From Komagataeibacter sucrofermentans DSM 15973 (GTDB lineage: Bacteria > Pseudomonadota > Alphaproteobacteria > Acetobacterales > Acetobacteraceae): a stretch of DNA of 64,000 nt. Positions 22,844-26,932 of the stretch are shown piece by piece; position 1 is the first letter of the stretch; each line of letters begins with the position of its first letter. The DNA lies in contig NZ_CP137157.1 in assembly GCF_040581405.1 (NCBI RefSeq), positions 1,616,001-1,680,000 on the forward strand. Reading direction: 5' to 3'. Below the pieces are notes generated by a model. It did no database searches. It was not told the origin of the DNA and saw only the letters and a program-made list of their open reading frames with translations. Position numbers and translations under genes: made by a program.

Positions 22844-23521
22844 ATGACCGATATTTCCTTTGCTGAAGGCATTGATGCCGCCCTGCAGGCCCGCGTGCTG
22901 GCCGCCCCGCATTTCCGCCGGTGGCATGAGGCCATGCGTACCCGCTTCACGTTGCGCCATGTGCTCGTGCGCGACGCGGTGGCCTTTGGCCCGGACCGCA
23001 TGGGCTTCATACTCGTGGAGGCCGACGCCCTGCATGATGGCCAGGCCGTGCCCGGCCTCGCGCTGCTGCGGGGTGATTCCGTATCGGTCATGGTCGTGCT
23101 GCAATGCCCCGGCTACCCCGACCGCACCATTCTCACGCGTGAGCCCCGCGTGCCGGTAGCCCGGCCCGACCTGCTGGCCCTGCCAGCGGGCATGCTCGAT
23201 GGCGGCGCGTTTGTCAGCACCGCGCTGCGCGAACTGTCGGAGGAAGTGGGAGCCGACCTGCGGGTGCGTGCCGAGGATCTGGTGGAACTGACGCGTGTCT
23301 GGCTCTCACCGGGTGGGTGTGACGAGGCGATTGGCCTGTACTATGCCGAACTGCGCATAGACGAGGCCCTGGCCCAGAGCCTGACGGACCGGCAGACCGG
23401 ACTTGCCTGCGAGCACGAACATATCCGCCTGCGGGTGATTGACCTGGCCGATCTGCCCCATATTGGCATGACAGATGCCAAAACGTTGCTTTCATGGCAC
23501 TTGTACCAGGCACGAAAATGA
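22844..23521 (+). CDS. NUDIX hydrolase, ADP-sugar diphosphatase-like
   Basis: A 225-residue NUDIX pyrophosphatase. The box reads PAGMLDGGAFVSTA then RELSEEVGA: the REL-x-EE-x-G half is intact, but the Glu normally six residues after the first Gly is missing and the spacing is one residue shorter. The PAGMLD start recalls plant ADP-sugar and related nucleotide-sugar diphosphatases, suggesting a nucleotide-sugar substrate; this is by eye only. GGAGAGG lies just upstream of the ATG. It follows the large glycosyltransferase gene by 130 bases in the same direction. Confidence 0.75.
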   Translation: MTDISFAEGIDAALQARVLAAPHFRRWHEAMRTRFTLRHVLVRDAVAFGPDRMGFILVEADALHDGQAVPGLALLRGDSVSVMVVLQCPGYPDRTILTREPRVPVARPDLLALPAGMLDGGAFVSTALRELSEEVGADLRVRAEDLVELTRVWLSPGGCDEAIGLYYAELRIDEALAQSLTDRQTGLACEHEHIRLRVIDLADLPHIGMTDAKTLLSWHLYQARK

Positions 23522-23536
23522 ACATACGTTTTTTTG

Positions 23537-23565
23537 TTGACACAACAATGTGAGGGTTGTCATAA
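23537..23565 (+). promoter_or_regulatory. Promoter of the candidate small RNA
   Basis: TTGACA (23537-23542), a 17-base spacer, then TCATAA (23560-23565). This is a good sigma-70-type promoter 16 bases after the NUDIX stop codon, pointing at the hairpin-and-terminator structure that follows. Confidence 0.6.
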
Positions 23566-23570
23566 CGGCG

Positions 23571-23649
23571 GGAAGCAGACTGCCTTGTGCAACTGCTTCT
23601 TGGACGTTTCCTCCCTAAACTCAGCGGTGCATATGCACCGCTTTTTTTT
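23571..23649 (+). ncRNA. Candidate trans-acting small RNA with anti-Shine-Dalgarno loop
   Basis: A transcript of about 79 nt is predicted between a strong promoter and an intrinsic terminator, with no open frame. Structure by eye: a perfect 7-bp stem GAAGCAG (23572-23578)/CTGCTTC (23593-23599), a single-stranded stretch carrying CCTCCC (23610-23615), and a terminator hairpin AGCGGTGCAT/ATGCACCGCT (23623-23642) with eight Ts. Exposed C-rich anti-Shine-Dalgarno segments between two hairpins are a hallmark of alphaproteobacterial sRNAs that repress translation. I cannot assign it to a named family. Confidence 0.6.
23623..23649 (+). terminator. Intrinsic terminator of the candidate sRNA
   Basis: A perfect 20-base palindrome (23623-23642) followed by a T run to 23649. 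It would end the small RNA and any readthrough from the NUDIX gene. Confidence 0.85.
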
Positions 23650-23735
23650 GCCCTGTTTTATATAAATTTCCTATAACTCTATGTCGTGTAGTATAATGCG
23701 GCACAGACCAAATTACATGAGGGGAACAAAGCAGA

Positions 23736-24092
23736 ATGAGCGGTATCTTCAATGATGTTATGGGCAAGCTGAGCGATCTGGCTGGTGCGACAGGCCTGTC
23801 GGAGCAGGTGCATTCCTACCTGGCCGAGCTTCTTACCCCCGCCACCATCACCAACCTGCTGAACCAGGCGGAACAGGCCGGGCTGGGTGACAGGGTGCGC
23901 TCATGGATTGGCGATGGCCACAATCTGCCCATCTCGACCGATGAACTGCGCACGCTGCTGAGCAATGAGCAGGTCCAGGCCATGGTGAACAAGACCGGCC
24001 TGCCCGCTGCGACCATCCTGCCTGTTCTGGCCCATCTGCTGCCCGAGGCCGTCAATACCCAGACCCCGGCAGCCGCCCCCAAAACCGCCTGA
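23736..24092 (+). CDS. YidB/DUF937-like small protein
   Basis: A 118-residue soluble protein similar to the YidB/DUF937 family: LSEQVHSYLAELLTPATITNLLNQAEQAGLGDRVRSWIG matches the family's helical core, followed by ELRTLLSNEQVQAMVNKTGL and the end LPVLAHLLPEAVNTQTP. Function unknown in all members. The start is preceded by GAGGGG. It is a single-gene unit: the sRNA terminator lies upstream and its own terminator 10 bases downstream. Confidence 0.78.
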   Translation: MSGIFNDVMGKLSDLAGATGLSEQVHSYLAELLTPATITNLLNQAEQAGLGDRVRSWIGDGHNLPISTDELRTLLSNEQVQAMVNKTGLPAATILPVLAHLLPEAVNTQTPAAAPKTA

Positions 24093-24131: not shown

Positions 24132-24269
24132 CATGGATGCTGCGGAAAGCATCAGAGGTCATTTTAACTTTTTGGGACGCTTGGCCGCGACATTATTCGC
24201 TGGCGGGCGCATGGCCCTGACAACCTGACTTAATGTCAAAACCACTCCACGGAAATTCCACAGATCTAG

Positions 24270-24286
24270 CAGCCTGTCGGGTTGGG
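24270..24286 (+). repeat. Left terminal inverted repeat of the IS
   Basis: 17 bases, exact complement of the right end at 25703-25719. Confidence 0.9.
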
Positions 24287-24322
24287 GTAACCTGTGAAGG
24301 GGTGAGGTTGTAAGGTTATGAG

Positions 24323-25667
24323 ATGAGCAGCTTTATCCCGTTTGACCGGTCTCAGCCGTATCTTCTGCCGCCTGATTTGAAGTCGTGGCTTCCGGCTGAC
24401 GATATGGCGCATTTCATTGTTACCGCTGTTGAGCGGGTTCCGATGAATGCGTTTTGTGTGCCAGTACGCACGGGAGGCAAGGCACAGTATCATCCGCGGC
24501 TGATGCTGGCCCTTCTGATTTTCAGTTACGCGAACGGAATTTTTTCCTCACGGCGGATCGAGCGGGCGACATATCGTGACATCGGGGTGCGCTTCGTGGC
24601 GGCGAACCTGCATCCGGATCACGACACGATTGCCGCCTTTCGCCGAACGAACCGGACGGCCATTGAAGCTGCATTTGCGCAGGTCCTGCTTCTGGCGCGC
24701 GAGACGGGCCTGCTGCGTCTGGGTGTGGTGTCGATCGACGGCACGAAGATTGATGCCGACGCCTCGAAATACCGCTCCCTGCGCTACGACCGGATCAGGG
24801 CCCTGCGTGAACAGTTGGGGGTGGATATCGCGAAACTGATGGAACAGGCGGAGCACGCGGACGCCACAGACAGTGATCCGCAGGCATTGCCGGAAGAACT
24901 TGCCCGCCGGGAAACGCTGAAAGCGAAGCTGGATGAAGCCTGCGCCCGGCTGGAAGCCGACGCGAAGGCTCAGGCCGAGGCGGCGCGACCGGCATACGAG
25001 AAAAAGAAAGCCGTCTATGACGCAAAAACAGGGCGTCGCGGCCGGGCGCCGAAACCGCCTGATGAGGAACCGCCACCCGACCGGCAGATCAGCCTGACTG
25101 ATCCCGACAGCCGCCTCATGCGGCGTTCGGACGCCCATGAGTTCCGGCAGGCTTACAAATGCCCAGGCTGTGGTCTGCGCTGAAGGCAGCCAGCTGATCG
25201 TGACAACCGGCGTTGTCGCCACGTCAGCGGACGCGCCATCCTTTGCCGACACGGTGCTGTCGATGGAAGACACAATCGGTCTCCCGGAGAAGGTGCTTGC
25301 TGACACCGGTTACGCCAGCGGGCAGGCGGTCCGGAAACTGCGGGAAAAGGGCATTGATCCGCTGGTCGCCATTGGACGGCCCTGTGCCCGTAGACCTTAC
25401 GACTTCCGACCCCGGCCCGCAGAAAGGGAGCCACGCCGGATAACCGAACCCTGGCGGCTTGCCATGAAGGACAGGCTGGAAACTACAGAAGCCGGAGATG
25501 TTTACAGACTACGAAAACAGACCGTTGAACCGGTCTTTGGAATTATCAAAAGCATCATGGGGTTCAGAAGATTCAGTCTGCGCAGCCTTGCAAAAGTTAC
25601 GACCGAATGGACACTCGTCGCTCTCGCATACAACTGCAAAAGAATGGCTCGGCTTCACGCAGCATAA
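24323..25667 (+). pseudogene. IS1182-family DDE transposase, frameshifted
   Basis: Two overlapping frames together make one transposase of the usual 450 or so residues. The first frame (24323-25183) starts SSFIPFDRSQPYLLPPDL and contains the DUF772-type N-terminus and the first catalytic Asp (VVSIDGTKID). It shifts at an AAA run (25157-25159): removing one A restores the expected join FRQAYNAQAVV. The second frame runs to 25667 and holds the other catalytic motifs (VLADTGYAS and VEPVFGIIKS). The first-frame product alone lacks two of the three DDE residues and should be inactive. IS1182 members are not known to rely on frameshifting, so mutation or sequencing error is likelier than recoding. 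Confidence 0.85.
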
Positions 25668-25702
25668 GCCGGGTCAGCCTCAGCGGTATCAGCCGCAAAA
25701 TG

Positions 25703-25719
25703 CCCAACCCGACAGGCTG
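25703..25719 (-). repeat. Right terminal inverted repeat of the IS
   Basis: 17 bases, exact complement of the left end at 24270-24286. Confidence 0.9.
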
Positions 25720-25821
25720 CTAGATAGATTTCCATAGGCACTAATATACGATGATAGATTTTCCCCTACAGGGAACTATCACACATTATTCTAATTTTCG
25801 TGAGTTTTCTGCGGGACGCCG

Positions 25822-25896
25822 TGGTGGGCGCAACAGGGATTGAACCTGTGACCCCTACCATGTCAAGATAGTGCTCTACCGCTGAGCTATGCGCCC
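25822..25896 (-). tRNA. tRNA-Val (anticodon GAC)
   Basis: A 75-base cloverleaf with encoded CCA. Read on the minus strand: acceptor GGGCGCA pairs with TGCGCCC plus discriminator A and CCA; D arm GCTCAGCGGTAGAGC; anticodon arm CTATC-TTGACAT-GGTAG with anticodon GAC; T arm ACAGGTTCAATCCCTGT. GAC reads GUC and GUU valine codons. Confidence 0.95.
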
Positions 25897-26071
25897 TCGG
25901 CGTCCGCTGAAATGGCTTTTACTGCCCCTTTCAGGCGGGCGCAACCCCTCTTTTCAAAAAAAACGCATTGACCCCCAAGCTGCCGCCTGCCCCTATGGCG
26001 GCCATGCGCTGCCCTGCCTTTCCGTTCCCGCCATCTGCTCGTATGTGGCTGTTCCCCATGGGAAAACCCGC

Positions 26072-26932
26072 ATGACGGAACGCGCCGTGCCGCCCTTTCA
26101 CATCATTGAGCCACACGGCATCCATCGGCCTGTTATCGTGGCGTCTCCCCATTCGGGGCGTAACTACATGCCTGAGTTCCTGCGCCTGTCGCGGCTGGGC
26201 GCGCTTGCGCTGCGGCGCAGCGAGGACTGTTATGTGGAGCAGCTGTTTGAAGCAGCGCCAAGGCAGGGAGCCACCTTGCTGCACGCCACCTTTCCGCGCG
26301 CCTATTGCGATGTGAACCGCGAGGCATGGGAACTCGACCCAACCATGTTCCGCGAACCGCTGCCCGCCTGGTGCAATACCACCAGCCGCAAGGTCAAGGC
26401 CGGGTTTGGCACCATTGCCCGCATTGTCTCGCGTGATGGGCCGATCTATGCGCGTCCGCTCCCCTTCGATGAGGCGGAAAAGCGGATACGCACCTGCTGG
26501 CGGCCCTATCATGATGCTCTGGCCCATCTGGTGCATGACAGCGTGGCGCGGCACGGCTTCTGCCTCCTGCTTGATGCCCATTCCATGCCTGCAGTGAAAG
26601 GGCGCGGAGAGCAGCCGGATTTTGTTCTGGGCAATGCCTGGGGCACGGCCTGCACCCAGCAGATGACGGCGCTGGTGGAGCATGTGCTGACAGGCCACGG
26701 CTACAGCGTTGCGCGCAACGTGCCTTTTGCAGGGGGGTATGTAACCCGGCATTACGGGCAGCCACGGCGCGGAGTGCAGGCCCTGCAATTGGAAATGAGC
26801 CGGGCGCTGTATATGGATCAGGACAGCCTGCAGCCCCATGAAGGCTTCGCGCGCCTGCAATCCGTGCTGATGGAAGTCGTGGCCATGCTGGCGCAATATG
26901 GCGACATGCTGGCGCAGATGGCAGCCGAATAG
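26072..26932 (+). CDS. N-formylglutamate amidohydrolase family protein
   Basis: A 286-residue zinc hydrolase of the FGase family, which in histidine degradation releases glutamate from N-formylglutamate (HutG). Seen: VASPHSGRNYMP, the family's first metal motif, a conserved Asp/Arg block (SEDCYVEQLFEAAPRQG), CDVNREAWELDPTMF, LLLDAHSMP, and the end of the domain ALQLEMSRALYMD. Start ATG 26072 (MTERAV); the frame is open further upstream but the residues do not look native. No hut genes adjoin, so a specific role in histidine breakdown is not implied. Confidence 0.85.
   Translation: MTERAVPPFHIIEPHGIHRPVIVASPHSGRNYMPEFLRLSRLGALALRRSEDCYVEQLFEAAPRQGATLLHATFPRAYCDVNREAWELDPTMFREPLPAWCNTTSRKVKAGFGTIARIVSRDGPIYARPLPFDEAEKRIRTCWRPYHDALAHLVHDSVARHGFCLLLDAHSMPAVKGRGEQPDFVLGNAWGTACTQQMTALVEHVLTGHGYSVARNVPFAGGYVTRHYGQPRRGVQALQLEMSRALYMDQDSLQPHEGFARLQSVLMEVVAMLAQYGDMLAQMAAE

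Follow-up and report, generated by a model that had tools for sequence, protein, structure and literature searches.

Introduction

The closest described systems are the small RNAs (sRNAs) MmgR of Sinorhizobium meliloti and SisA of Caulobacter crescentus. In S. meliloti, PhaR (AniA) is reported to bind the mmgR promoter and to repress mmgR (PMC12542648), and the PhaR consensus has been given as TGCRNYGCASMA (PMC6201568). SisA is an alpha-r8 sRNA whose pairing was demonstrated in Caulobacter by structure probing and compensatory mutation. Its 10-mer is reported to pair with the sponge CrfA, which it binds much less strongly when hfq is missing, and with a TonB-dependent receptor mRNA; in the latter, pairing involves the 5' region, and the compensatory change lay at position -6 relative to the start codon (PMC12559287). 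The same report places alpha-r8 in all Alphaproteobacteria except Rickettsiales and states that, in most species, a single alpha-r8 gene sits next to the gene for N-formylglutamate amidohydrolase (FGase) (PMC12559287).

Komagataeibacter is described as the main genus for bacterial cellulose. Among the titles returned by a literature search on small RNA and Komagataeibacter, none dealt with a native sRNA of the genus, and in the paper collection searched, none was found to name Acetobacteraceae together with MmgR.

Here, we analysed a stretch of 64,000 nucleotides of a Komagataeibacter genome (the window), in which a first-pass annotation had proposed a translation-repressing sRNA at 23537-23649. 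Very probably, this RNA is the Komagataeibacter orthologue of the alpha-r8 sRNA and would, assisted by Hfq, block the translation of several mRNAs via the segment UUUCCUCCCU. The RNA family and the kind of RNA are already known, and what is new is Komagataeibacter as host. The less expected part is the promoter wiring, which is without a PhaR box, unlike that of many relatives.

Family Identity and Architecture of the RNA

The Rfam model RF00519 (suhB/MmgR, alpha-r8; full title "Makes More Granules Regulator RNA") matched 23588-23656 on the + strand with 49.7 bits, above its gathering score of 41. Within the window, this family and one tRNA reached the gathering score and no other Rfam family did, and in the whole genome the same place is the top-scoring one for RF00519 (E 4.1e-9). 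The first-pass annotation had proposed a small RNA of the alphaproteobacterial, trans-acting type whose anti-Shine-Dalgarno segment lies between two hairpins, and Rfam puts the RNA in just such a family; the kind of RNA was thus correctly named, while the known family behind it went unrecognised. All the elements are present in the sequence, namely TTGACA, the 7-bp stem, the core, and a terminator with eight T.

The RF00519 score, the fold, and conservation within the genus point to 23571-23649 (+) as the probable transcript, whose ends we infer. The RNA would accordingly have a length of about 79 nt, with 23537-23570 as the probable promoter, so that the 113-base span put forward earlier does hold the RNA and was too long by its promoter part. 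At its beginning stands a 5' hairpin (23572-23599, +) with an outer stem of 7 bp, GAAGCAG (23572-23578) against CTGCTTC (23593-23599), and an inner stem of 23581-23583 with 23589-23591. It is followed by the anti-Shine-Dalgarno core UUUCCUCCCU at 23607-23616 (+), read as TTTCCTCCCT in the DNA and identical to the 10-mer of PMC12559287. A Rho-independent terminator (23623-23649, +) closes the RNA; its stem occupies 23623-23642, and the eight T that end at 23649 are likely to bind Hfq. The family's arrangement, a weak hairpin 5' of the core and a Rho-independent terminator 3' of it, is therefore found here.

The 79-nt RNA folds with -28.7 kcal/mol, compared with a mean of -16.68 in dinucleotide shuffles (z -4.34), and none of 200 shuffles was as stable. 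In this MFE fold the core is mostly exposed: the UCC of UUUCC forms three weak pairs with GGA, reduced to two UCC/GGA pairs in the centroid fold, and UCCCUAAACU is free. The exposed C-rich segment described in the first-pass annotation can be kept for UCCCUAAACU and has to be qualified for the weakly paired UCC. The fold of the 113-base span (z -3.89, 1/200 shuffles as stable) is unsuitable for this purpose, since it includes the promoter, which pairs with part of the core. The pattern CTCCCTAAACT, with up to one mismatch, occurs once in the window, where 0.17 occurrences are expected and at least one was seen in 16/100 shuffles.

The statement that the span holds no reading frame is right for ORFs of at least 60 aa, none of which was found over the RNA, and too strong for shorter ones, as four mechanical ORFs of 22-48 aa overlap it. 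One of them is a 43-aa frame (23534-23665) that could be taken for a short coding gene. This frame starts at the -35 element, however, and it is shifted by C/CC length changes in the hairpin among members of the genus, so we regard a coding function as hardly credible.

A diverged alpha-r8-like RNA was seen elsewhere in the same genome, outside the window (L002:1501-1587, +; C1:1602073-1602159). It has the core ACGTCTCCCAATCCCTAAACT, a terminator, and 30.2 bits to RF00519, which is below gathering. With 0-2 mismatches it is present in 5/5 Komagataeibacter genomes of a 249-genome set, in which its pattern reached 10 genomes at up to three mismatches (reversed control 2). The five matches outside the genus, with 2-3 mismatches and no hairpin plus T-run by eye, were taken as chance. 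Judged by its sequence, L002 looks like a diverged sibling of the window sRNA, and as its anti-Shine-Dalgarno core is altered, it may have other targets. The third-best RF00519 match of the genome (L003, 25.6 bits) was dropped as an apparent coding sequence.

Conservation of the Structure in Relatives

For comparison beyond the genus we used the wider family, which, from the genus Komagataeibacter, we take to be the Acetobacteraceae. A total of 76 distinct family sequences were picked for an exact TTTCCTCCCTA, which loci L061 and L106 do not have, and the invariance of its 11 bases is consequently the result of this selection. In 76/76 MFE folds, at least five pairs lie 5' of the core. The core is wholly unpaired in 13/76 folds and has at least 7 of its 11 nt unpaired in 65/76. 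In the 11 folds that leave five or fewer of the 11 nt free, the 5' segment sometimes adopts a different arrangement and the core is drawn in. Folded alone and compared with simple base shuffles, the 5' piece showed a mean z of -2.55 and lay below -1 in 64/76 sequences; the mean z of the 17 Komagataeibacter sequences was only -1.35, and the 5' piece of L017 adopted an alternative pairing.

RNAalifold on a MAFFT alignment recovered the terminator and, apart from it, only a GGA/UCC mini-hairpin. Misalignment of the stems had hidden the 5' hairpin, which is why per-sequence folds and an arm-swap control were used. The 3' arms of the hairpin exist in 44 versions (last 12 nt). When 5' and 3' halves were exchanged, 1210/7253 chimeras were as stable as native, and for Komagataeibacter 3' halves combined with foreign 5' halves the number was 62/1003. 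We read this as a 5' hairpin that is maintained by co-variation across genera. Komagataeibacter itself shows one compensatory change, in which a C-G pair of the inner stem becomes U-A (locus L026), and 44/500 shuffles equalled it; as two hairpin length classes are out of register, only the inner stem and the terminator were counted at this level. The terminator stem shows no change across 12 distinct genus sequences. Covariance of the stem in relatives, proposed earlier as a check, is on this reading seen across genera and shrinks to this one change inside Komagataeibacter, for which reason the genus alone is insufficient proof of the 5' stem.

Promoter and PhaR Box

The putative promoter (23537-23566, +) consists of TTGACA at 23537-23542, an 18-nt spacer, and the -10 element CATAAC at 23561-23566, with a predicted start site. 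A consensus-based promoter scan reported no site for sigma-70 here because the -10 CATAAC is poor. Nevertheless, TTGTTGACACA, GTGA (23550-23553, inside the spacer), and CATAA display no variation over 19/19 Komagataeibacter loci, and the pattern in this genus reads TTGACAC-N6-GTGA-N7-CATAA. The GTGA is a possible regulator site. Genus g43 has loci, among them L085 and L088, in which a GTGA stands at equal distance from TTGACAC.

PhaR boxes were counted as TGCRNYGCA (strict) or YGCRNYGCR (looser) in the 90 bases that begin 115 and end 26 bases 5' of the linker GTTTCC, which cover the promoter plus roughly the first ten bases of the RNA. Upstream of the sRNA, neither the strict nor the looser motif was found in any of the 19 Komagataeibacter loci. 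High-scoring loci of other genera carry the strict motif in 24/30 cases and the looser one in 29/30, and 13 of them have two strict boxes. A further set of 27 loci came from non-Komagataeibacter genomes that are sRNA-positive and gave no PHB synthase match, some of these being incomplete drafts with synthase-bearing sister genomes; here the counts were 15 strict and 18 looser (locus L043 is counted in both sets of non-Komagataeibacter loci). The chance rate in simple base shuffles was 0.2-0.9% for the strict and 1.6-3.7% for the looser motif.

PHB synthase (PF07167, E<=1e-20) was not detected in the five Komagataeibacter genomes of the 249-genome set, including the genome studied here, while PhaR (PF07879) was found in 7/7 genomes of the genus tested. 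Of an MmgR-type PHB circuit, which is not needed for membership in the family, both the PhaR box and PhaC are thus missing. This bears on the idea that the sRNA is a full equivalent of MmgR, repressed by PhaR and limiting PHB granules through phasins. Such a role would agree with the common RNA family RF00519 and with the retained PhaR gene, but there is no upstream PhaR-box motif at any of the 19 loci and no synthase in 5/5 genomes, and we consider it very unlikely.

It is conceivable, if somewhat doubtful, that the alpha-r8 sRNA of Komagataeibacter was instead freed from the PHB/PhaR circuit and placed under a new promoter, with the surviving PhaR redeployed to carbon-overflow genes. The candidates for such genes are those near PhaR-box-like sites, i.e., PPDK, the SSF symporter, the GntP permease, and the OprB porin. 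In some other family members without PHB synthase, such as genera g43 and g73, the sRNA was perhaps released from PHB/PhaR in the same way. If this were true, survival of the sRNA would track PhaR-era carbon control rather than PHB as such.

The PhaR-box-like sites themselves were sought in the same genome outside the window, where the pattern TTGTGCRNYGCAV gave 11 matches at nine sites (reversed control 1). Five of the nine are intergenic (L155, L161, L153, L159), and their neighbours are PPDK and the SSF symporter, the GntP permease and a short-chain dehydrogenase, the OprB porin, and a 253-aa frame to which no Pfam family matched. The remaining four (L152, L156, L157, L158) have no clear promoter position. 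The motif matches may outline a PhaR regulon in a genus that lacks PHB synthase.

Genomic Neighbourhood

The sRNA lies in an intergenic stretch (23522-23735) between a NUDIX hydrolase gene (22844-23521, +; PF00293, E 2.3e-06) and a yidB-like gene (23736-24092, +; PF20159, E 1.2e-16), and this position is the same in 19/19 genus loci. Since the NUDIX gene is on the same strand and its stop codon, ending at 23521, is only 15 nt 5' of the -35 element, the RNA with its strong terminator might be the 3' end of the NUDIX mRNA, either as a terminator or as an sRNA released by processing, and not an independent gene. The invariance of the promoter elements over 19/19 genus loci argues against this, as do the PhaR-box motifs in the promoter region of 24/30 loci of other genera; moreover, the NUDIX protein was matched in 0/30 RNA-bearing loci of other genera within 1.5 kb. 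We therefore judge an origin from the NUDIX mRNA to be improbable.

A role in cis, as leader or attenuator of the yidB-like gene, is even less probable. This gene starts 86 nt past the terminator in the window and follows next on the same strand in 19/19 genus loci, but no match to the YidB protein was found in the 30 RNA-bearing loci of other genera.

Further downstream, between the yidB-like gene and FGase, an insertion sequence (24264-25725, +) with perfect 23-bp inverted ends was found. It has CTAG at each end, and its two transposase parts, DUF772 (24323-25183) and DDE_Tnp_1 (25137-25667), overlap in different reading frames. In Komagataeibacter xylinus K2G30, this region measures 240 bp where the window has 1652. 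FGase (25889-26932, +; PF05013, E 4.2e-73; start codon mechanical) is located beyond the yidB-like gene and the insertion sequence, 2.2 kb 3' of the sRNA; its vicinity is usual for alpha-r8 copies and not a strict requirement. It lies within 1.5 kb of the sRNA in 16/18 other genus loci, beyond yidB, and in 21/30 loci of other genera.

Around the sRNA, the DNA shares 90-93% identity with three records of K. xylinus and one of K. melomenusus; with a short K. nataicola record the figure is 92.6%. Judged by this locus, the genome falls within that group. A 31-base piece of the RNA was found unchanged in 14 named sequences, all of them Komagataeibacter, a number from which the genome's own and near-identical records may be omitted.

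Distribution in the Family

A lack of conservation of stem and loop in relatives had been named in advance as a refuting outcome, and the RNA withstood this test: the sRNA is above threshold in 19/19 Komagataeibacter genomes searched, and 207/249 family genomes have an RF00519 match at E<=0.001 (203/249 above cut-off), with up to eight matches per genome. Among 14 control genomes, Caulobacter alone was above cut-off. Many copies, with 7-8 matches, were observed in G079, G246, and G108, and locus L040 carries three tandem alpha-r8 copies within about 0.6 kb.

The sRNA and PHB synthase occur together in 175 of the 249 genomes; 32 have the sRNA only, one has the synthase only, and 41 have neither. 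Thus, 41 of the 42 genomes without sRNA match (1.7-3.7 Mb in size) are without PHB synthase, and the same 41 are without PhaR. The one exception for both genes is G098, a draft of about 300 contigs. By comparison, 59/63 tested sRNA-positive genomes, which were chosen and not random and include six Komagataeibacter genomes from outside the 249-genome set, possess PhaR; it is absent from G027, G205, G241, and G057. A model built from 57 family sequences (R1) reached at best 23.0 bits in the 42 sRNA-negative genomes, against 84.3 bits in one positive control and 81.0 in another, though a very diverged copy could escape it because of the strict filters used. Weak R1 matches in 14/42 of these genomes (E 0.006-0.08) were taken as chance.

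Counting the joint absence of PhaR and the sRNA as many independent events was not adopted, as the negative genomes may share one or a few losses. The 42 sRNA-negative genomes suggest that the published rule, by which Rickettsiales alone among the Alphaproteobacteria are without alpha-r8 (PMC12559287), has exceptions in this family. Taken together, the sRNA absences and the promoter changes allow one to ask for the role of alpha-r8 apart from PHB storage. What lends some interest to an otherwise ordinary family member is its changed promoter, together with the fact that PhaR and the sRNA are missing from the same genomes.

Putative Mechanism and Targets

Transcription, RNA ends, Hfq binding, repression, and targets are all predictions from sequence data. 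A dedicated promoter would give rise to an RNA of about 79 nt ending at its own terminator. With the help of Hfq, UUUCCUCCCU would be presented in the linker between the two hairpins and would pair with Shine-Dalgarno sites of the GGGAGGA type, blocking the translation of several mRNAs. Such a SisA-like mechanism is suggested by the same core, the same arrangement, and the presence of an hfq gene in the genome. Pairing of the C-rich segment, as assumed in the first-pass annotation, is in line with the homologue SisA, whose identical 10-mer is reported to pair with RNA partners (PMC12559287). In Komagataeibacter, synthesis of the sRNA might furthermore be uncoupled from PhaR, which would give it a role in general carbon or envelope control and not in PHB storage.

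A genome search for RGGGAGGA followed by ATG at 3-11 nt yielded 23 matches, two of them at one site (reversed control 2). This excess is no evidence of targets, since ordinary ribosome sites would give the same excess. Duplex energies were calculated for 9 of the 23 matches, the lowest being -25.3 for a 67-aa frame, and they are no test of targeting because the search pattern itself selects the seed. The candidate frames include sufB (SUFBD domain) and, presumably, thiG, zapA, a nitrilase, a trehalohydrolase, and a sugar epimerase; all were dropped as claims. What the conserved sRNA with its defined pairing core does offer is a handle on post-transcriptional control in Komagataeibacter.

Comparison with Known Systems

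RNAs of the SmelA075/SmelA099 type, presumably those called 'cuckoo' RNAs, resemble the window sRNA in being short and in having an anti-Shine-Dalgarno motif. Their motif CCUCCUCCC is reported to lie in hairpin loops (PMC3927594), whereas Komagataeibacter presents UUUCCUCCCU in a linker, and CCUCCUCCC in hairpin loops is not a feature of the window sRNA.

MmgR of Sinorhizobium meliloti is much closer. It shares the RF00519 model above gathering, the family core, and the terminator, and its reported length of 77 nt (PMC7143759) compares with about 79 nt inferred for the Komagataeibacter RNA. The difference lies in the wiring: MmgR is repressed by PhaR (AniA) and limits PHB, while the Komagataeibacter loci are without the PhaR-box motif and PHB synthase was not detected in the five genomes of the genus searched. 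From SisA of Caulobacter crescentus, the locus differs in number, with four siblings and the sponge CrfA in Caulobacter against one copy over threshold plus sub-threshold matches in our genome. In architecture the two agree, both carrying the same 10-mer between a weak hairpin and a terminator at an FGase-linked locus.
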